In this document: piece by piece, positions 16,301 to 31,552 of the stretch | Position numbering within the stretch: the first letter of the stretch is position 1 | How the letters are laid out: the number at the start of each line of letters is the position of its first letter | Origin: Acetobacterium woodii DSM 1030 | GTDB taxonomy: Bacteria; Bacillota; Clostridia; Eubacteriales; Eubacteriaceae | Direction: 5' to 3' | NCBI RefSeq assembly: GCF_000247605.1 | Contig: NC_016894.1 | Location: 3,523,732 to 3,587,731 of the forward strand | Length of the DNA: 64,000 bases | Made by a program: the position numbers and the translations under genes | Notes under the pieces: model-generated | Database searches by the model: none | Told to the model about the DNA's origin: nothing | The model's input: only the letters and a program-made list of their open reading frames with translations

Positions 16301-19300
16301 ATAACGGCCATATCCGATGCGGTATCGTTTTGAATCGCATTCCCCTGAACATCCGTTGTTTTTATTTGGGCCAGATCGTGGATATAGGCATTCACATCGT
16401 TATGCTCGCTGTCACTCGCAATCGTAAAATCCTGAGCTGTTATGGCAAAATTTTCATACTGACTGGCAAAGTATTTGCCATTAGTGGCCGTATCCTTACG
16501 GCTTAAGATATCGATGAGATCATAACCGCCAACACTGCGGGGATCATAACCAATCGACTCAATGAGTAGCGCATCCTTAGCAGTATCGCAGGCATCAAAA
16601 GTTTTACCTTCCACACCCGCTGTTTTCAGATCGGTGTATTTTTTACAGATTGTTTTAAAATATTCATCATAGAACCCATCCGGCACCGGATAGTTGTTTC
16701 TGGCAGCCGATATGATAATCCATGAGTCATAATTTTTAGTCGGCTCAGGATTTTCACCCAACCATTTTTTGATGATCAGATTACAAGCGGCCTTGGAATT
16801 GGCAATGATCTGTTTCTGCTGATCGGCGGTCGGATCAACGGCACTGTTTTCCAGAAATTGTCCTCTGGCAATGTTCCTCTGTCCACTGGTTAAAACTTCA
16901 GGGTCCAGTTCGTAATCCACTTCATTGTTGGCATCATAGGTCAGTTTGAGGGAGTTGAAAGTCACATATCCCCGGGCGTCATCGCCCATTGTCCCCACAT
17001 AAAAGGGATCGTCTTTGATAGAATAGTCCACTTTCAAATGATAGGGATTGGTTCCAATATCATTAACAATCTGAACCTCTTTAAGTTTTGTCATCCGACA
17101 GTTCTCAAAATCAGCGGTGTTGTTAAACGTACGCGGCTCCAGAACAAACTTCAGAGAGATCACCTGACGTTTATTCAGGGTATTTTTTTTACTAAAATCC
17201 AGTTTCGGATAACCGTCATTCGCGATTGAATCCACACTCCAGCTTTGGGTGAAATCCCAGCCGGCAGTTGTGTAGGTCGTTTCTTTCTTCATCATCCGGG
17301 TGACATTGGCAGTTCCTTTTGCGTCATTGAGTGATATACCCAGAATATTACTATCGTAAAAGCAATTGGTGATCGTTCCGCTACCAATGGGCTGTGACCC
17401 GCCACTAAGCGCTCCAGACCAGATTCCGGCATAATAGGAATCTTGAACGGTTCCGTTTTCACAAAAACCATAGTAATTTATCGCTTCTGTTGAGCTACTG
17501 GTTACAGCCGCACGGCTGTAGCAGTTTTTGATAGTCCCTTTAAGACTGATCATGTCTCCAACTGTCTTGGTTAAACTGGTATTCTGTTCGCCAACCAGCG
17601 ACCCAGCCGAATCCGCTCCGGTAAAAGCAATTGTTCCGGTGATCCCGCAACGGGTCACCTTACCACCATTGTAATCGGCAACAATCCCGGTTCCGTTGGT
17701 TCTATTCGAACTGTTAAACGCTTTGTAATCTATTCCAGTTGCTCCATCGTACGTCAGATTGACCTGAACAATGAAATTTCCCACGATTCCGTTTGATCCG
17801 ATAATACTGAAAAGTCCGGACTGGTCATCGGAATAATTTGAGAGCATATGACCTCGTCCATCGAAGGTACCATCGAAAATGTAGTACTGCGTCAACGGTG
17901 TCTGATAAGCTTTAAGCCCAGTCGCATCAATGTCTCCGGTCATGATCACAGTCTCGCCAGTGTAGGTGTAACCGTTTTGAAGATCGGATCGCAGCGCATT
18001 CAGATCCGCCACGGTGCTAACAACATACTGTCCGGCTTCATTCTTGTTCAGAGTCGGCGGTGTATTCACATTCACCTTGACCAGAGCATCAATAGCCGAT
18101 TTCAGGTCTGCGGTTTTTGCATCCACCGTGGTCTGATCCTGTTTGGTCAGTTTGCTGTTATCATAGCATGTCTGTGCGTCCGCTCTGGCCGTTGTCATCA
18201 CAGCATAGCTCTCCGGCGTATAATTGCTCTCGATCAGTGTCCCGGCCCGATCCAACTGAGCTTTCAAGGCCGTTTTATCCGCCGTCAACGCGCCATTGGC
18301 TAGCGTTGTTGTAATCGCACTGGCCAGGTTTGTTTTGGCCGTATCCACTTCCGTTTGGGTTGCATCCGTTTTGGCAAGAACCGCTTTGGCGGTACTCAAA
18401 CAGTCACTGTATATCTTCCAGGCCTCACTGGAATAATTTGCTTCAAGATAACCGGCAGCATCTGCATCGGTAACTACTTTCTGCAGAGCGCTTTTATCCA
18501 CACCCTGATTGACCTTGACCAATTCGGCAATGGCGTCGTTGATACCTTTCACTGCCGCGTTTATCACATCACTGGTGACCGTTTTATTATACTTATCCAG
18601 CGCTTGGGTCGAAACCGTCTCGGCCGCAGTTACCGCCGCTGTCAATGTAGCAAAACTATCGGTGGTATAATCGACCGCTTGATAAGCATCTGAATTTGTT
18701 AATGCGGTATTCAGATCTACCACTGAGACCAACGCATCGATTTTTTCTTGAATTCTTGCAGCGCTAGCATCCACACTCGTCTGGCTGGCTTCAGCATTAA
18801 TCATCAGCGAGTTTGCTGAATTAATCGCACTGGTCAGATACTTGAAGCTGTAGGCGGTATAATTGGATGAATTGTAAATGCCGGCTTTGTCAATCATCGC
18901 TTGCAGGCCGTTCTTATCAGGTATCACAATCGCATTTTTGATGGCCGTCTGTAGATTCTTACCAGCATTTTGGAGCGTAATCATCGATGCCTCTGCCGGA
19001 TTCACTGCTTTTGCCGCCGTCAACGCCGTCTGCATGGCGGCAATGCTGGCCGGTGTATAATAAGTGGTCTTCGCAGCTTCGGTCTCGCCGGTTGCAACAG
19101 TTTGATTAAACAGATCGATATCGGCCTGCGTAACCGCACTAAACACCTTCAGTTCCGGATAACTGCCTTCTACCAATTTCCAGGTGTAATTACCATCCCA
19201 GTTGGTAAAGGTCGCTATTTGTTTCAGCTCGCTGTCCGTTTTGCCGGTTCCCTTGCTGTTATCAGAGAGAGTTCCCGCAATTCCCGAGGTATTGTAAAAA

Positions 19301-22398: not shown

Positions 22399-25300
22399 TT
22401 ATCTCCTAATCAGAAAAGCGGTCTCAATGCTTCCGTCTTCAGGTGTTGGTGCAGCTTGACCCTTAGGTACAACCACAACACGGATCCCTTCCAATCGATA
22501 ACCAAACCCGGCGGTTCCAGCCTCTTTACCATTTTGGGCAAAACCCATCCAACCGATGTTCTGGGCATGAACCTGATAATAAATATCATAGTTTTTAGCA
22601 TCAGCTCCGGTTAATTCAATCCGGATTGCTTCCAGCCTTAACGACCGACCTTCAGTCCCGCTTGTATCGCCATCAGCTTTCCAATCATCTTCCCAGCCAA
22701 TATTTTCAATATGTGTTTCGTAACGAATGCCCAGGTCCACGTCGGCTTTATCGGTTCGTTTAATTTGTATTCCTTCCAATCGTAGCGATTTACCCTGGGT
22801 TCCACTCATATCACCGTTGTTTCTCCAATCCTGCCAGCCGACGTTCTGAACGTGAGTACAGTAGCTAACATCAACTACCGGTATTTCGGTATCGGTGGTT
22901 GTTTTTGTTCCAACTAAGCCAAAATCTGAAAAGGCATTGACTTTAAAAATCAGTGATTTACCATCTTCAGACAAAGTCGGGGTAATCCATTCCACCGTGC
23001 CGTCAGTTTTTTTATGATAAATCTGATAACGATCATACCCCTGCTGTTCAGTGTTGAGTGGAATAGTCAAGGTGACATAACTGGTAGCATCATTGTTAAA
23101 TTTGGCCAGATCGGCATCGCTCATATCCGGTTTAATGGTATAAAGGGCGATAATTTTCGCGTCCTTGATCCCTTCTTTTTTAGCAGATTTCAATGCTTCA
23201 TCGGTCTTATCGGCATCAGCACTTTCGTTCCCAACCTTAAGGGTTGTTCCTTTTGGCAATCCGATTGCTTCAATCCCAGTCTTTTTGTCTTTTACAACCG
23301 GAGTTTCTGCTTCCAGTTCAGCAATCCGGGTTTCTGCTAAAATTAGTGTATTGAGATTAGTCACTAATGCTTTCTGAGTTTCCGTCAATGCATTATAAGC
23401 AATCCGAGCAGTGACAACATCGGCTTTTTCTCCCAATAACAAAGCCGTTCCGCTGGGCAGTGCGGCAATTTTATCGACAACCGCTTTAGCTGCAGCTTTG
23501 TTGGCTGCTTCAGTTGCTTCTTTTTCCAGTTCAGCAATTTTTGCTTCGGCAGCGGTCAAGGTGTTGAGGTTCGTGACCAACGTTTTTTGCGTCGCTGTTA
23601 ATCCATCGTAAGCGGTGCGAGCGGCTGTTATGGCGGCCTTATCAGTTAAAGCCAACTTGCTAACAGCAGGCAAAGCGGCAATTTTATCCGTTACGGTTTT
23701 TGCTGCGGTTTTATCGATTCCGGCCGAATCCGCAACAGCTTCGTTCAATGCTGTTGCGGCATCATTTGTCGCTTTTAAGGTTGCGGTCATATCTTGTGCG
23801 ACTGTCATCGCGGTATCGTAGGCAGTTTTAATGTCCGCATCACTTAAGTAAGTCGATTTATTAGCATTAACAGCGGCAATAGCTTTTAGCAGGCTATCTT
23901 TATTGGCAATGTTCACCAGTGTTTTGTTGGAGCCAAATTCTATTCCGGTTATATCGCTGCCTGTTCCCCAATAGGTAAATGCTAACCGCATCACATCACC
24001 ATTTTTAAGTTTATATTCATTCATCCCGACATTGGGAGCCGAATTATTAACCAGATAATACCAGCCGGAATATTTACTATAGTCAAATTCGCCCAGAGTT
24101 GTCCCACTATATTTCTGTGGATAGGCATTAGCTGTGGCACTATTGGCGCCACCTATTTTTGAAACAATATAATCTGGAATGGTTGCTTTTCCCGTATCCG
24201 CCCCTTTAACGGCCCGAAGATAGCCCGGATCGCCAACCAGGTTATCGGCTCCCAGAAGTTCTTCTAAGGCCTGACGAGCAGTTTCACCTTCTTTGATGGA
24301 AACACTGACTGGTTCCACATAGAATCCCTGTCCAATAGTAAAGCGTTCCACGTCAATGGTGATGCTGCCATTATTTGGCTTTAATTTTTCGATAGCTGTT
24401 TCGGCATTTGTTAAAATTTTTAACGTATCACTACTCACTAGCGCTTTTTGATCAGACGTTAATTTATTATATTCCGTTCGCGCGGATTCAATACTCGCCT
24501 TTTGTTCCCATTTCGTGATGGTTCCCAAGGCATTAATCTGATCGGTCACTTTCTTTGCTGCCGCCTTATCGGTTTCGTTTTTTTCCAGTTCGGCAATTTT
24601 TTCTTCGGCGGCTGTTAATGTCGCTAGATTGGTTACCAACCCTTTTTGTATTTCAGTTAAAGCGTTATACGCTGATCGTGCTGCCGTTACTTTGATTTTA
24701 TCTGTCAGTACCAGACTATTCGCTGCTGGCAGCGCAGTGATCTGATCGACTACTGTTTTAGCAGCGGCCTTATCAACTTCAGAACTTGCCGCCGTTTCCA
24801 GTTCGGCAATTTTTGCTTCGGCGGTTGTTAATGTCGCTAGATTGGTTACCAACCCTTTTTGTATTTCAGTTAAGGCGGTATACGCTGATCGTGCTGCTGT
24901 TACTTCTGTTTTATTGGTTAATTCCAAATCTTCCACTGCTGGTAAAGCTGCAATTTGATCGACCACTGTTTTAGCGGCCTTTTCGTCTTCAGTTTCGCCT
25001 GTTGCCTCCGTTTTAGCCATGACTCCAAAGTCTGAAAAAGAGCTTACCTTAAAAATCAGACTGCTGCCATCCTCTGAAAGCGTAGGATCGATCCATTCAA
25101 TATCGCCATTTGTTTTCTTGTGATAAATGCGATAACTCTCTGCTCCCCGTTTGTCTTCCGGAATCACTAACGTCATAGTCACATAACTGTCAGCATCATT
25201 ATTAAAGTTTTCCAGCTCAGTCTCTGTCATGTCCGGTTTGATGCCGTATAGTATAACGACCTCAACTTCAGCTATTTTCGCTTCCTCTGCTGCTTTTTTA

Positions 25301-28300
25301 GCCGCTGCTGTTACATCTGGATCATCCTTCTTATCTTCTACCTTAAGTTCTTTAACCTTTTCCGGCAATCCGACTACTTCAATTTTGCCAGTCTCCGATT
25401 TAACTGGTCCAACTTTTTTTTCCAGTTCCGCTATTTTAGCTTCAGCATCGATTAGTTTTTGCTGAGCTTCTTCACTAACCAACGCTTTCTGGATATCGGT
25501 TAAGGCCTTAAAGGCTTTTCGACTCTTCATTACCTCGGCTTTATCACCAGCTTTAAGCTGATCGGCTACTTTGATCTCAGCAATAAGATCACTGACCTTT
25601 TGGGCTGCTGCTTTATCCGCTTCAGTACCTGCCGCTGCTTTCAATTCAGCAATCTTTGCTTCGGCATCCGTCAAAATCTTGAGTGATTCGGCCGTGACCA
25701 ACGCTTTCTGAGCTGTGGTTAATTTATCGTATGCGGCTTTCGTATCAATGACATCTTTCTCTTTTTCCAGCGTAATGATACCGAGGGCGGCAATTTGATC
25801 GGTGACCGTTTTAGCCGCTGCTTGATCATCGTTAGAAACAATTATCTTAGCAAGATTTTCTTTTTTTAAAGAAGCTTTCTTGACTTCGCTCAACTTTTCA
25901 TATGCGGCTTTGGCTGCTGCAATATCTGCCTCATTACTTTCATTCGTTAGTGCTATTAGCAAATCATTTACCGGTTTGGTAGCTCCGACAATATCACTGG
26001 TATCAAAGATCTGGTTACGACCTTCGTACTGGCGAATAACCGCGGTAAATCCCCGGGTAAGCTGCGTGATTTCATAGGTTCCCTGATAGGTTCGATTATC
26101 AAAATCGATAAAATTAAATTGCGAATCCAGAACCGTGTTGCCATTTTGAATGAAACGGTTATCAAACACGTTCATATTAAAACACCCCAAAGCAATCATC
26201 GTCTGGGCATTATTATAGGCATTCAACGGCTGACCAGTAGTGGTAAAAGAACCATCGCCATTTTGAAGAATCGGGTTGTCACCGCCGACTCGATTGTACA
26301 TATAATTGTCTGTCGCTGCTTTTACAACCGGATCATCTAAAAAGAATCCAAGCTGCTGAAAAAACATGGCGTTATCACCATTGCTGACTGCAGTATCCGG
26401 ATAAGTATTTAAAGATGCCGCACCTGATGTTCCAATTGTTGAAATGTCCGCTACTAAAGGGTCTTTAGCCGTCATCTCATAACCGCCGCCTAAAAGGGCC
26501 AGATAGGCCGTCTGTTCTTGCAGAACTTTATTATTATCCAGCATGTTTTTATCGGAGATTATATCAATCAAATCGTAGTCTTCAATATCCCGGGCATCAT
26601 AACCAGCGGCGGTTATCGCCATTACCAGTTTAGTCCATTCGGTTACCTTCATATCTTCCGGTTTCAAGCCGCCTTCCTTAAGGGTATGAAGGCTGGTTTT
26701 GACATTGGCAAACCATTTGTCATAGAATGCGCTATCCTCACCGGGGACATAATCGCCCCGGGCCGCAGAGAAAATCGCCCAAAGATCCTGTAGAAATATT
26801 TTATCACCAGGTAAATCCCCAACCACGGTCAAAGGTGTCAAGTAAGTACTGCCATCACCAATATATTTCTCAAAGATAATGGTGTTGGCTTCTTTGGCTT
26901 TGGCGATTTGTGCCTTCTGTTCATTTTCATCTGGGCCAGGTGTTTTATTATCAACAATTCTAGCTTGTCCGGTAACGACTTTACTCAGTTCAAATCGATA
27001 TCCATCTTCAGTCGCCTGGTCTAACTCCCCAACTGTAATTGTCGGTTGATTCTTATACACTACGGTGACATCCCGCCAGCCCATATTCTGCATACTTTTA
27101 AAAGCAGCACTAGTAACATCCGTCTTTGGATCAAAATTAATTGTTACCTTGTAAGTTTCTAATAGTGTCTTCTCTGCTTCACTTAGTCCCGAAAATTCCA
27201 TTCCGGTCACTTCTGCCGACAAATCGCTCCCATCGCTCCCATCATTCCATGTTTTTTCTTCAAACACCGGTTTAACTTGAAGTCGCTTCTCAGTAATCCG
27301 TATGTTCAAATATGGTAGGTTGTCATTTGTTCCATCAATTGTCCAAATATACTTAAAATCCCAACCTTCATAAGTTTCTTGGTTTTGTAACTCTGTCATG
27401 GTTTTACCAATGACTTTTTCTGGTGTATCTTTATATGCCACCTCACTTCCAAATACAACTGCCGGTGTCAAGTTTTCGCTATTATAGTACGATACCCCTT
27501 GTCCAGTTCCTGATGAATACACCGCTAAGCCAATTGCAACCTTCCCACCTGTTGCCGTTGTTTTGGCAAAGTCTGAATTTGTTACTTTGCCCAGTGAATA
27601 ACATTTATTTAAATCACCATTACCGCTTGCATAGAATTGGTAAAGCAAAACCCCTTGCTTTCTCCCTTGATATGCTTCAATTTCTTCAGGTGTTCCATCT
27701 AATGTATAATCGATACTGCTGATGGTATTTTCTATTATACTAATATCCTTAGTAGCGTTTGAACCGGCAATACCAGCTACTGTTATTGCCTTTTCATTGG
27801 CGGCCGATATTTTTATATTTCCTTCTACCTTAACATACTCAATTCTTCCATAATTGGCATCACATAGAGGTGAACGCGCTGCCGTCGATTCTGTTTTTGT
27901 TGTCCCATCATTAACAAGCACGGTAAGATTTTTTATGATCCCGTAGTTTCTTGGAATTATAGACCGTTTCTGAATGATTTCCTGATTGTTTAAGGTGATT
28001 TTATGTCCTTGTCCATCAAAGGTCCCGTAGAAGTTTTGATCAATGTCCGTAAAATTTTTTTCCTCGCCAATTTCGATGTCTGCTGTTAACACCACCGTTT
28101 CATCACGATATCCAGTTGAACCAGCAGCTGCCAGATCCGTCCGAAAACTCTCTAAATCAGCTAATGTGCCAATCTCATATACCCCATCAGTATTTTGAGT
28201 AAGACTCGGTGTGTAGTCAGCTGCCAAAACCGACAAAGGGGTAATCACTCCAATGATTAATAATAACCCCAACAAAATACCCAGTTGTTTAAAACTTATT

Positions 28301-28308
28301 CTTTTCAT
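22399..28308 (-). CDS. Large modular surface protein (1969 aa): GLUG-like, alpha/alpha toroid, DUF4430, three ChW repeats
   Basis: The signal peptide covers 1-29 (ending VLAAD). A GLUG-like beta region spans about 40-340. An alpha/alpha toroid spans about 480-775 (LWAIFSAARGDYVPG, MAITAAGYDARDIEDYDLI, AYNNAQTMIALGCFN). Helical repeats containing ALTEIQKGLVTNL-type motifs follow, and beta domains ending FSDFGV occur at about 980-1096 and 1676-1803. The DUF4430 domain lies at about 1316-1462 and the three ChW repeats at about 1810-1955. From DUF4430 to the end it is nearly identical to the 2730-aa protein, including the terminal FLIRR. No riboswitch leader precedes it. Only 85 bases, including a terminator, separate it from the upstream DUF4430-like gene, so expression may depend on read-through or a promoter I cannot pick out. 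Confidence 0.85.
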   Translation of the reverse strand: MKRISFKQLGILLGLLLIIGVITPLSVLAADYTPSLTQNTDGVYEIGTLADLESFRTDLAAAGSTGYRDETVVLTADIEIGEEKNFTDIDQNFYGTFDGQGHKITLNNQEIIQKRSIIPRNYGIIKNLTVLVNDGTTKTESTAARSPLCDANYGRIEYVKVEGNIKISAANEKAITVAGIAGSNATKDISIIENTISSIDYTLDGTPEEIEAYQGRKQGVLLYQFYASGNGDLNKCYSLGKVTNSDFAKTTATGGKVAIGLAVYSSGTGQGVSYYNSENLTPAVVFGSEVAYKDTPEKVIGKTMTELQNQETYEGWDFKYIWTIDGTNDNLPYLNIRITEKRLQVKPVFEEKTWNDGSDGSDLSAEVTGMEFSGLSEAEKTLLETYKVTINFDPKTDVTSAAFKSMQNMGWRDVTVVYKNQPTITVGELDQATEDGYRFELSKVVTGQARIVDNKTPGPDENEQKAQIAKAKEANTIIFEKYIGDGSTYLTPLTVVGDLPGDKIFLQDLWAIFSAARGDYVPGEDSAFYDKWFANVKTSLHTLKEGGLKPEDMKVTEWTKLVMAITAAGYDARDIEDYDLIDIISDKNMLDNNKVLQEQTAYLALLGGGYEMTAKDPLVADISTIGTSGAASLNTYPDTAVSNGDNAMFFQQLGFFLDDPVVKAATDNYMYNRVGGDNPILQNGDGSFTTTGQPLNAYNNAQTMIALGCFNMNVFDNRFIQNGNTVLDSQFNFIDFDNRTYQGTYEITQLTRGFTAVIRQYEGRNQIFDTSDIVGATKPVNDLLIALTNESNEADIAAAKAAYEKLSEVKKASLKKENLAKIIVSNDDQAAAKTVTDQIAALGIITLEKEKDVIDTKAAYDKLTTAQKALVTAESLKILTDAEAKIAELKAAAGTEADKAAAQKVSDLIAEIKVADQLKAGDKAEVMKSRKAFKALTDIQKALVSEEAQQKLIDAEAKIAELEKKVGPVKSETGKIEVVGLPEKVKELKVEDKKDDPDVTAAAKKAAEEAKIAEVEVVILYGIKPDMTETELENFNNDADSYVTMTLVIPEDKRGAESYRIYHKKTNGDIEWIDPTLSEDGSSLIFKVSSFSDFGVMAKTEATGETEDEKAAKTVVDQIAALPAVEDLELTNKTEVTAARSAYTALTEIQKGLVTNLATLTTAEAKIAELETAASSEVDKAAAKTVVDQITALPAANSLVLTDKIKVTAARSAYNALTEIQKGLVTNLATLTAAEEKIAELEKNETDKAAAKKVTDQINALGTITKWEQKASIESARTEYNKLTSDQKALVSSDTLKILTNAETAIEKLKPNNGSITIDVERFTIGQGFYVEPVSVSIKEGETARQALEELLGADNLVGDPGYLRAVKGADTGKATIPDYIVSKIGGANSATANAYPQKYSGTTLGEFDYSKYSGWYYLVNNSAPNVGMNEYKLKNGDVMRLAFTYWGTGSDITGIEFGSNKTLVNIANKDSLLKAIAAVNANKSTYLSDADIKTAYDTAMTVAQDMTATLKATNDAATALNEAVADSAGIDKTAAKTVTDKIAALPAVSKLALTDKAAITAARTAYDGLTATQKTLVTNLNTLTAAEAKIAELEKEATEAANKAAAKAVVDKIAALPSGTALLLGEKADVVTARIAYNALTETQKALVTNLNTLILAETRIAELEAETPVVKDKKTGIEAIGLPKGTTLKVGNESADADKTDEALKSAKKEGIKDAKIIALYTIKPDMSDADLAKFNNDATSYVTLTIPLNTEQQGYDRYQIYHKKTDGTVEWITPTLSEDGKSLIFKVNAFSDFGLVGTKTTTDTEIPVVDVSYCTHVQNVGWQDWRNNGDMSGTQGKSLRLEGIQIKRTDKADVDLGIRYETHIENIGWEDDWKADGDTSGTEGRSLRLEAIRIELTGADAKNYDIYYQVHAQNIGWMGFAQNGKEAGTAGFGYRLEGIRVVVVPKGQAAPTPEDGSIETAFLIRR

Positions 28309-28393: not shown

Positions 28394-29092
28394 TTAGAAT
28401 GGGCTTACTGCTACCCATGGGCCTGATGAAGGAGAAGTTGCTGTATCAGCTAAAACGTAAGCCGTTCCACCCAGATCAGCGCCGCCAAACATGGTAAAGT
28501 CAAGCTCAATATTGTCGCCTTCATTTAATGTCGTATCAATACCCCAATTAGCATAATTGTCGTTATTTAATTCAACCATCCAACCAGAATTATAATTATA
28601 ATCTTTTTCGGTTAAATAATTAGTAGTTGCAACGGTGTTAGTCCAGAAATGATTGCCAATAAATGCGGGTGCCGTAATATCATCAACTTGGCTTTTAAAG
28701 GCATAGTCTGCATTATCTGGCGAAATCGCATCATAACTAGCAGTTCCATTATCATCAAAGAACTTATTAGTAGAAGAATGTCCATCGACTTCTACCGCTT
28801 TTACATAATAGCCATATTGTGTTTGTGCAATATCCACATCAACGCCGGTGGCAACTTCTGCCGCTTCAATGGCATCTTTTAAAGTCGGATTGTCTTTGTT
28901 AACAGTAACCGCTTGGGCATTAACTAATGTTCCCCCGTCCATGACTGCCGTCTTAATTGTAACGGTGGCATTCACGGGCGTAGCGGCTTTAACGACACCC
29001 ATTCCTGGCAATGCCAGCATTGCTGCCGTCAAAATTGCGGCTGAACCTACCATCACTGCCTTGTTTCTCATCCAACTAATACTTTTGCTCAT
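28394..29092 (-). CDS. Small secreted DUF4430-like protein
   Basis: With the start at 29092 the protein has 232 residues. This start has GGAGG seven bases upstream and gives a clean signal peptide (MSKSISWMRNKAVMVGSAA, cleavage near VVKAA). The upstream in-frame ATG at 29149 lacks such a site. After the signal the chain looks like a divergent DUF4430 domain: NPTLKDAIEAAEVATGVDVD, then NSGWMVELNNDNYANWGID, then EGDNIELDFTMFGGADLGG. It has no ChW repeats and no anchor, so it may be released or loosely held. It has a strong GC-rich terminator and a long structured RNA leader, which suggest separate and perhaps high expression. Its ligand is unknown; corrinoid binding is inferred only from its family and location. 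Confidence 0.75.
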   Translation of the reverse strand: MSKSISWMRNKAVMVGSAAILTAAMLALPGMGVVKAATPVNATVTIKTAVMDGGTLVNAQAVTVNKDNPTLKDAIEAAEVATGVDVDIAQTQYGYYVKAVEVDGHSSTNKFFDDNGTASYDAISPDNADYAFKSQVDDITAPAFIGNHFWTNTVATTNYLTEKDYNYNSGWMVELNNDNYANWGIDTTLNEGDNIELDFTMFGGADLGGTAYVLADTATSPSSGPWVAVSPF

Positions 29093-29194
29093 TTTAATCC
29101 TCCATAAATTTTGCTTAAACAGCAATTTGAATCTTGACATCACCGTCAATAGAGGGTAAACTAAATTATAATTTTCTAATGTGACTTGTTGTCA

Positions 29195-29450
29195 CCGACC
29201 TTGGGAATCTGCCAATTCCTGAGGTTTTTTATTTGCCCTCGTTGCCAAAAACCATCGTTGAACCGGTGCTCCTGCAGTCAATTGGCCGGTTCCTCCAATC
29301 GGATAAGACTGCAGCGCTGCTCTTCCTGCTTTTTCACACGTGCCCCCCTTTCTGTTTGTTAACCAAACCATGAAGCCCAATGCTTCACATTTATTCTCAA
29401 GGTGTAACCACCTGAAGAGCCTTTTTTTAAGAACGTTCGACTTTTTAGTT
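29195..29450 (-). ncRNA. Structured RNA with H-type pseudoknot upstream of the small DUF4430-like gene
   Basis: On the minus strand an 8-bp stem CTGCAGTC/GACTGCAG (29314-29307 with 29279-29272) encloses a GATTGG/CCAATT stem (29300-29295 with 29285-29280). The loop segment GAACCGG (29292-29286) is fully complementary to CCGGTTC downstream (29266-29260), giving a pseudoknot. A further GGAAT/ATTCC hairpin lies near 29210. The 90-codon ORF here (29192-29464) has no signal, motif or convincing ribosome site and looks like chance. From memory the sequence resembles the widespread Firmicutes raiA-type RNA, but I cannot verify that. It could be an independent RNA or a leader of the 28394-29092 gene. 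Confidence 0.55.
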
Positions 29451-29512
29451 TTCAATGATCGCATTTCAATTTTTATTCTAATACACTGTTCGATATCATA
29501 CTTTTAGTTAGT

Positions 29513-30205
29513 TCAGGCAATCAGCACTTTGTCAATCCCGGCGGCCCAACCTTCATCGATCTGATACAAGCCTTCCGCTTCTTCAAACTGGTGGCGAAGG
29601 GGGCTTTTTTTAAGCAAGTATTCATAATCCCGGGTCGGTGTGGTCACAAAGATCGGTTTGGGTGAAGTACTCAGCAAACCAAAATTAATTTGCCCTTCTT
29701 TCCCTCTAAGCGAATCAAACAAAGCTTTGTTTACCTGGATCGGCGGTTTGGCCGTTTTCATCTTTAAAGTCACATCATCTTTAATTTTATAACCCAGATA
29801 GGTAATGATCTTGTCATTAAGACCGGCACTAAAAATATGAATCTTCTCAATCAGATCCATCATGTCATGAACCACCCGAATGCGATAAGTGGGAAACAAT
29901 GCCTGTGTTTCTTTAATTTGATTTTCAATTAACTCTTCTTCACTGATCATTTCGTCACAATTATCGGTAGCATCATCGAGATCCAAAAAGATAATATATT
30001 CTTTTTCCATTTCTTTGTAAGCCGTCGAATAAGGACTGCGAAAACGATGACCGCACACCGGACAAGTAAAGTCAAAAATACGGCCAAAGATCACTTCCTC
30101 CCGAATGGCCTGATCCAGTGTAGCATTAACCATCTCATAAGCTTCAACGTTAAAGTACGCTCCGCATTCCGGACAGGTTCGCATTATTGTTTTTTTTGTT
30201 GCCAT
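29513..30205 (-). CDS. CpXC domain (zinc-ribbon) protein
   Basis: This 230-residue soluble protein starts with a CPECG...CPVCG pair of cysteine knuckles (about residues 15-18 and 50-53), the hallmark of the CpXC family, expected to bind zinc. Acidic and helical regions follow, including an EELIENQIKETQALFPTY segment. The biochemical role of CpXC proteins is not known. The start is supported by AAGGAGAG upstream. It directly follows riboswitch copy 4, so its expression is predicted to fall when corrinoid is available. That makes it an unexpected non-transport member of the regulon. Confidence 0.78.
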   Translation of the reverse strand: MATKKTIMRTCPECGAYFNVEAYEMVNATLDQAIREEVIFGRIFDFTCPVCGHRFRSPYSTAYKEMEKEYIIFLDLDDATDNCDEMISEEELIENQIKETQALFPTYRIRVVHDMMDLIEKIHIFSAGLNDKIITYLGYKIKDDVTLKMKTAKPPIQVNKALFDSLRGKEGQINFGLLSTSPKPIFVTTPTRDYEYLLKKSPLRHQFEEAEGLYQIDEGWAAGIDKVLIA

Positions 30206-30224: not shown

Positions 30225-30472
30225 CAAAAAAAGAACTCCCATCAAGGCATAAAAATACCTTTGACAGAAGTCCTAGAATTTGCTGTAGAACTGTCGTGAT
30301 CTGATCCACTCTGCGTTGGATCGTCTCTGTCGATAAAGAATGAGTTCCCGACTTAAACCTTCCGGCAATTACGGTAGCGCATCTGCTTGGGATTTTCACC
30401 CATATTCCTCTGTGGTAAAAAGCAATTTAATTTTGCTTTTACCAAACCTACTAAAATTTCGGCAAACTTTAT
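30225..30472 (-). promoter_or_regulatory. Cobalamin-riboswitch-like leader with intrinsic terminator, copy 4
   Basis: Minus-strand conserved segments are GGGTGAAAATCCC, GCGCTACCGTAATTGCC and GTCGGGAACTCATTC. The terminator (GACTTCTGTCAAAGG/CCTTGATGGGAGTTC arms, then seven T) ends 20 bases before the CpXC start codon. It is almost base-for-base identical to copy 5 about 1.08 kb away. Confidence 0.8.
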
Positions 30473-31304: not shown

Positions 31305-31552
31305 CAAAAAAAGAACTCCCATCAAGGCATAAAAACACCTTTGACAGAAGTCCTAGAATTTGCTGTAGAACTGTCGTGATCTGATCCACTCTGCGTTGGA
31401 TCGTCTCTGTCGATAAAGAATGAGTTCCCGACTTAAACCTTCCGGCAATTACGGTAGCGCATCTGCTTGGGATTTTCACCCATATTCCTCTGTGGTAAAA
31501 AGCACTTTAATTTCGTTTTTACCAAACCTACTAAAATTTCGGCAGACTTTAT
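31305..31552 (-). promoter_or_regulatory. Cobalamin-riboswitch-like leader with intrinsic terminator, copy 5
   Basis: It is identical to copy 4 through the core and terminator apart from a few bases (for example near 31336 and 31504-31516). It carries the same GGGTGAAAATCCC, GCGCTACCGTAA and TCGGGAACTC segments. It abuts the truncated DUF2599-like remnant, and then the 130-aa membrane protein gene. Confidence 0.8.

Follow-up and report, generated by a model that had tools for sequence, protein, structure and literature searches.

A structured RNA was found on the minus strand between two genes of an operon headed by a cobalamin-type riboswitch. It is tentatively interpreted, with slightly less than even confidence, as a cis-regulatory leader that is limited to one genus and in which ribosomes on a short reading frame would change the fold of the mRNA and tune the downstream proteins. 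Comparison of its copies at the sequence level shows that its position, stems and pseudoknot are conserved, the changes in the latter two being consistent with the strand, and that a short frame with a Shine-Dalgarno sequence runs over the 5′ arm of stem H3. The kind of arrangement, a short frame coupled to RNA structure beside a B12 riboswitch, is known from Mycobacterium tuberculosis (PMC11260477), and the element itself is matched by no Rfam 15 family.

Genomic Context of the Element

The operon lies on the minus strand of the window, i.e., the whole stretch of 64,000 nucleotides analyzed here (G000:C1:3523732-3587731, on a contig of 4,044,777 bp). On this strand, the riboswitch region is followed by a gene encoding a CpXC-domain protein, a gap of 420 nt containing the element, a gene for a small protein with a signal peptide and a giant ChW/DUF4430 gene (Table 1). 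The element is presumably co-transcribed with this operon, from the riboswitch through the CpXC gene to the surface-protein genes. The initial annotation had placed a structured RNA before a secreted protein beside a B12-regulated locus, which is supported by the conserved position, the covariation and the sub-threshold cobalamin riboswitch upstream.

The window holds two near-identical cobalamin-type riboswitches about 1.1 kb apart, at 31376-31503 and 30296-30426 (both minus strand). With 31.6 and 32 bits, both fall short of the Rfam gathering score of 50. They carry the same terminator, and similar regions were also found in G009 and G011. Two further GG[GT]TGAAAATCC motifs resembling the riboswitch core are located at 16759 and 12901 of the window (minus strand).

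For the small signal-peptide protein, Pfam gave no match up to E 0.1. Its relative in G011 (92% identical) gave a weak DUF4430 match below the cut-off (E 0.012), and the region 177-228 of the small protein is similar to the DUF4430 regions of the giant proteins. A PDB search with three small secreted proteins returned two matches, both to engineered repeat proteins and not meaningful.

Table 1. Features of the element and of its operon, in positions of the window.
Feature	Position	Strand	Remarks
Cobalamin-type (AdoCbl, RF01482) riboswitch aptamer	30296-30426	-	32 bits against Rfam gathering score of 50
Terminator-like sequence GAACTTC...GGGAGTTCTTTTTT	3′ of the aptamer 30296-30426	-	recurs in all 8 aligned riboswitch regions; second arm shorter in one
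CpXC-domain protein gene (PF14353)	29513-30205	-	Pfam match
Core structured RNA (H1, H2, H2b, H3, H3in, pseudoknot)	29258-29417	-	comparison of copies
Hairpin H1	29396-29417	-	compensatory C-G/U-A and G-C/A-U changes
Hairpin H2 (GUGAAGC/GCUUCAU)	29370-29388	-	outer G-U pair kept in 6 of 6; inner pairs partly lost in two divergent copies
Hairpin H2b (GUUUG/CAAAC)	29354-29368	-	weakly kept
Shine-Dalgarno sequence of the short frame	29343-29352	-	GAAAGGGGGG; GAAAGGAGG in divergent copies
Short frame GTG...TGA, MKKQEEQRCSLIRLEEPAN	29278-29337	-	19 codons in four copies, 12 in two divergent full copies
Stem H3 (8 bp)	5′ arm 29307-29314, 3′ arm 29272-29279	-	CTGCAGTC/GACTGCAG
Inner stem H3in	5′ arm 29295-29300, 3′ arm 29280-29285	-	29295-29299/29281-29285 form 5 Watson-Crick pairs
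Pseudoknot (7 bp)	5′ arm 29286-29292, 3′ arm 29260-29266	-	GAACCGG in the H3in loop; CCGGTTC
Second module D3	29134-29240		closing pairing 29232-29240/29152-29160; hairpins 29199-29224, 29181-29195, 29134-29149
Promoter-like TTGACA-17-TAAACT	29134-29162	+	8 or more of 12 matches at the aligned position in all six full copies
Terminator-like hairpin with T run	29197-29230	+	z -3.99
Signal-peptide gene downstream of the element, weakly DUF4430-like	28394-29092	-	ATG at 29092; Shine-Dalgarno sequence 29099-29103
Giant surface protein gene, ChW repeats and DUF4430 (1969 aa)	22399-28308	-	Pfam

Structure and Strand of the Core

The initial annotation had described an 8-bp stem, an inner 6-bp stem and a perfect 7-bp complement between a loop and a downstream sequence, all of which are present as H3, H3in and the pseudoknot (Table 1). 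The sixth, outer pair of H3in (29300/29280) is a G-U pair on the minus strand, with A opposite C on the plus strand. The GC-rich character ascribed to the region was also found, the GC content being 0.56 at 29250-29349, compared to 0.32-0.38 for 100-base intervals on either side (29050-29249 and 29350-29549). The open reading frame of 90 codons at 29192-29464, dismissed there as meaningless, is intact in the window copy alone among the six full copies and matches no Pfam family at E up to 0.1. A coding function of this 90-aa frame was rejected, as frame shifts or stops occur in the other five full copies.

The alignment A5 consists of the six full copies, four of which are close to each other, a kinship that the shuffle statistics ignore. 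The deletion copy (G000:C1:3881695-3881859) was omitted from the alignments A5 and A6 and hence from the covariation, strand, promoter, and short-frame tests. Over the six full copies, 93.3% of the 239 cells of the core can pair, a value that falls to 31-43% if the pairing partners are slid by 1-3 columns. Six core pairs are changed on both sides compared to 2.6 in shuffles (reached in 1 of 500), and the covariation score is 0.188 compared to 0.128 (reached in none of 500); the count of further pair types is unexceptional (80 of 500 shuffles). The comparative alignment called for in the initial annotation thus yields compensatory changes in the six full copies. In the pseudoknot of G017, all seven positions pair if an extra G is moved to a different position of the 3′ arm; in this manual reading one position is swapped from G-C to C-G and one is U-G. 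The covariation count used the MAFFT placement of this G, by which one pseudoknot position is scored as unpaired.

The initial annotation gave no strand for the structure. Cells of the core that can pair by G-U only on the minus strand number 19, at 10 positions, against five at four positions for the plus strand. This evidence puts the core on the minus strand, which is the strand of the secreted-protein gene. The plus strand was rejected by the same counts, although its z-scores are better for both the core and the surrounding 331-nt stretch. The folding energy of the core is ordinary (z -0.85 on the minus and -1.92 on the plus strand). For the 331-nt stretch, z amounts to -2.41 and -4.28, respectively, the latter probably owing to the adjoining terminator-like hairpin. 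A structure beyond chance is therefore supported by the comparison of the copies and not by the folding energy of the core.

The distance between H3 and the 3′ arm of the pseudoknot is only five bases. When 63 nt were folded, the minimum-energy structure contained the pseudoknot helix as a plain hairpin, whereas the centroid structure contained H3. The narrow spacing and the difference between these two predictions suggest that H3 and the pseudoknot helix may compete.

A Short Reading Frame Inside the Core

Inside the core, a Shine-Dalgarno sequence followed by a short frame was identified (Table 1), which is absent from the initial annotation. GAAAGG[AG]GG is present in every full copy, with GTG or ATG 5-6 nt past the tested motif; the two copies with the 12-codon frame are G017 and that on A. 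bakii contig C9 (G009:C9). The aligned combination of Shine-Dalgarno sequence, start codon, and short frame occurs in all six full copies and in 2 of 2000 column shuffles, or in 7 of 2000 if the Shine-Dalgarno sequence is retained, in a test that was devised after the frame had been noticed. All three parts are found in the deletion copy, too. The 5′ arm of H3 overlaps codons 8-11 of the frame in the close copies and codons 9-11 in the two divergent ones, and the frame ends about 185 nt upstream of the start of the downstream gene.

The four close copies show no synonymous bias in the short frame, both variable codons alter the amino acid, and the peptides differ between the core types. This suggests that the act of translation and not the peptide would matter. 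The peptides of the divergent copies start with MAEPK (L053:6364-6402), MEEPK (L054:6387-6425) and MEESK (L050:5775-5804), with acidic residues that are followed by proline in two. Early acidic residues in mgtQ, an intergenic frame of 8 codons in the Salmonella mgtCBRU operon, act by destabilizing ribosomes, as stated in passages on mgtQ (PMC8092293).

A passive intercistronic structure, which serves mRNA processing or stability and determines the relative amounts of CpXC and surface-protein mRNA without any sensing or role of a peptide, is an unlikely explanation. It agrees with the several hairpins and with the location between cistrons in those copies that retain the CpXC gene, but leaves the conserved Shine-Dalgarno sequence and start codon as well as the changes in the pseudoknot unexplained.

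It is very unlikely that the element is a ligand-binding riboswitch, e.g., for a corrinoid, in tandem with the cobalamin riboswitch upstream. H1 and the Shine-Dalgarno stretch are kept across the core types, while the identity of the mid-core drops to 0.43-0.57 (window compared to G017), a strong difference between types that is unlike most aptamers. Furthermore, no Rfam riboswitch matches the element at E up to 5, and it was found with confidence in one genus only; the pseudoknotted fold and the B12-linked operon are the features that would suit such a riboswitch. Due to the Shine-Dalgarno sequence and the short frame in the middle of the structure, a ribosome-driven leader is the better first guess than a ligand aptamer.

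Comparison With Known RNAs

The initial annotation had considered a raiA-type RNA and recommended an Rfam scan for it, in which raiA did not match the element even with E values up to 5 allowed. The candidate raiA (RF03072) was rejected, since the genuine raiA of this genome is located outside the window (G000:C1:3277070-3277272, L106; 181 bits). One raiA RNA per genome was found in four of four genomes, each away from the element. At the gathering score, Rfam 15 has no match in the window, and no family was found at the element in the other copies (L050-L054). The raiA RNA (ModT) is likewise described, in passages on it, as a pseudoknotted RNA of Bacillota (PMC11706538) and has a family model of 209 positions, but it differs in that this model has no match at the element. 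A report on the element was not found in the titles and abstract openings among the matches listed.

The mgtQ frame shares with the element a long intergenic gap in an operon, a strong Shine-Dalgarno sequence, a very short frame, and alternative stem-loops overlapping this frame (PMC8092293). It differs in its length of 8 codons, and the passages on mgtQ do not describe a pseudoknot. Furthermore, mgtQ opens a masked ribosome site of mgtB according to the same passages, whereas such masking is not consistently predicted for the element. The metE and ppe2 uORFs of Mycobacterium tuberculosis likewise combine a B12 riboswitch with a short translated frame before the regulated gene, as given in passages on them (PMC11260477). 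There, the metE frame is part of the aptamer and the ppe2 frame extends into the gene (termination-reinitiation), whereas the frame described here belongs to a separate element and ends well before the gene start.

Proposed Mechanism

In the proposed leader, H3 and the pseudoknot helix would represent the competing folds. A ribosome on the short frame would open H3 around codons 8-11, so that the RNA shifts between the two folds, and the fold would decide on the translation of the downstream secreted-protein gene or on the stability of its mRNA. If corrinoid is scarce, the riboswitch would permit transcription and the leader would then determine how much surface protein is made relative to CpXC protein.

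The simplest form of this mechanism, in which a masked ribosome site downstream is released as described for mgtQ (PMC8092293), was analyzed in six copies. Partition functions were calculated with a pseudoknot-free model, leaving the short frame free or keeping it open. With the frame free and open, respectively, the mean unpaired probability of the downstream Shine-Dalgarno sequence is 0.08 and 0.19 in the window, 0.36 and 0.25 as well as 0.20 and 0.20 in the two copies of G011, 0.34 and 0.32 in G009:C68, 0.27 and 0.26 in G017, and 0.72 and 0.70 in G009:C9. Holding the frame open in silico had no consistent effect on access in the six copies under this model, and a masked downstream ribosome site is not consistently predicted. 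Thus, mRNA stability or reinitiation are equally open as outputs of the leader.

Secreted DUF4430-type proteins beside B12 riboswitches may be candidates for corrinoid capture by acetogens. A second layer of control behind the riboswitch, if true, would be a further instance of a logic combining riboswitch and short frame that, to our knowledge, has so far been known from mycobacteria. The leader can be tested directly, as primary-transcript data have been published for one of the carrier species, A. bakii.

The Second Module and the Opposite Strand

The second module D3 adjoins the core (Table 1). Regarded as a minus-strand structure, it shows little covariation, with two pairs changed on both sides, which was reached in 219 of 500 shuffles, and a covariation score reached in 28 of 500. 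Its closing pairs read GAGGG/CCCTC on the minus strand, and its mismatches suit the plus strand.

The second module may yield a plus-strand RNA of about 60 nt. As a countertranscript running from TTGACA-17-TAAACT to the T run near 29230, this RNA would pair with the minus-strand leader and control it, with or without the core, a reading that is doubtful but carries some weight. Over six copies, the promoter-like sites match at 9.5 of 12 positions on average, a value reached in none of 300 column shuffles of the module and in 2 of 300 of core and module, while the best minus-strand site, with 8.5, is less unusual (18 and 36 of 300). Each of the seven copies has a T run of 6-8 behind the hairpin, whose stability is clearly greater on the plus strand in four of them, and the predicted RNA length is 59-65 nt in six copies with the T run correctly placed. 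For A. bakii, 45 antisense and 69 intergenic TSS and a promoter spacing of about 17 bp are given in passages of the published report (PMC6239172), which was also counted in favor of a countertranscript. On the other hand, the same bases form the minus-strand hairpin 29134-29149 with changes suiting the minus strand, the -35 region reads TTTACT in two copies, and the invariant GAGGG in the promoter spacer is not needed by a promoter. Moreover, the terminator hairpin is weaker on the plus strand in G009:C9 and about equal on both strands in the deletion copy and in G017, where it was folded separately in a stretch ending a few bases short of the hairpin end.

In plasmid ColIb-P9, the repZ leader with Inc RNA likewise brings together a frame within the leader, a pseudoknot and a small antisense RNA. 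The element differs from it by its chromosomal location, by the genes concerned and by its putative antisense RNA downstream of the pseudoknot. In a speculative reading of low probability, the element would be a chromosomal counterpart of such plasmid copy-control leaders. The surface-protein output of the riboswitch-gated operon would then be set by three parts sharing about 280 bases, namely the leader frame, the pseudoknot and the countertranscript RNA (about 60 nt), and the core types would be exchangeable.

Distribution and Mosaic Structure of the Copies

DNA and model searches identified seven copies of the element, six full ones and one with a deletion, in four of the 19 genomes of the genus. 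Besides the window copy, G011 contains two, located 8 kb apart, A. bakii (G009) contains two, and G017 one; the deletion copy is in the same genome as the window. The sequence-only model R1, built from five copies, recovers all seven at E 1.9e-8 or better. Model R2, built from six copies, scores the seven at 45.7 to 189.6 bits, and its search of the genus covered 18 of the 19 genomes.

The copies have a gene order in common, on one strand, of riboswitch region, CpXC gene, element, and signal-peptide gene. A cobalamin-type riboswitch is located upstream in six of the seven, and in G017 the contig ends too soon. The CpXC gene is absent or cut short at three copies; on A. bakii contig C68, the element begins about 35 nt past its stop codon. 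The signal-peptide gene lies downstream of every copy and is broken in the deletion copy. Among 15 genomes examined, the CpXC gene was found only in the four that bear the element. No element was detected in the searched 1.5-kb flanks of two further CpXC loci of A. bakii, one of which runs directly into a giant ChW gene. At L104:1044-6242, a CpXC gene is directly followed by a gene for a ChW/aBig surface protein of 1408 aa, with a sub-threshold cobalamin-type riboswitch and without the element.

Outside the genus, R2 matched only G302 (33.3 bits) and G124 (26.8 bits) among 391 genomes of the class. Both were rejected, since the usual neighbors are missing and the matches lie in coding frames, read as an rpsP-rimM-trmD region and as prophage genes. 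In 39 genomes of the family, R2 gave one weak match in G066 (E 0.096). In a search of 67 genomes of the order, R1 gave weak matches outside the genus, the best being in G030 (L061, E 4.7e-4) and G061 (L062, E 0.002); G030 was not reported by the R2 search of the 39 family genomes. A pattern scan of genome contigs returned only copies of A. paludosum and A. bakii, and neither viral contigs (pattern) nor plasmids and phages (blastn) had a match to the element.

The core of the window and that of A. bakii contig C68 are 0.90-0.97 identical in steps of 60 bases and 0.82 at the last step. Between the window and G009, the identity is 95.0% for the core, 69% for the second module, 78% for the CpXC DNA, and 30% for the small proteins. 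Between G009 and G017, it is 67% for the core, 86% for the second module and 89% for the small proteins. The core is a sharply bounded block, which was counted in favor of the leader, and appears to be exchanged independently; the relationships of the second module match those of the downstream gene. A block without RNA function that gene conversion or exchange had carried from locus to locus, or a decaying gene, would also agree with these mosaic identities, in which core and second module have different relationships, and with the one copy in deletion form. This is quite improbable, as compensatory changes between types together with broken protein frames are at odds with neutral drift of a gene.

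In the deletion copy (L050:5696-5860), whose downstream frame is broken, two A-run repeats (AAAAAAcCT-like) seem to delimit the lost stretch. On A. bakii contig C9, a group II intron identified by Rfam (L054:3983-5798), with frames read as reverse transcriptase-like, precedes the riboswitch region and the element by a few hundred bases.
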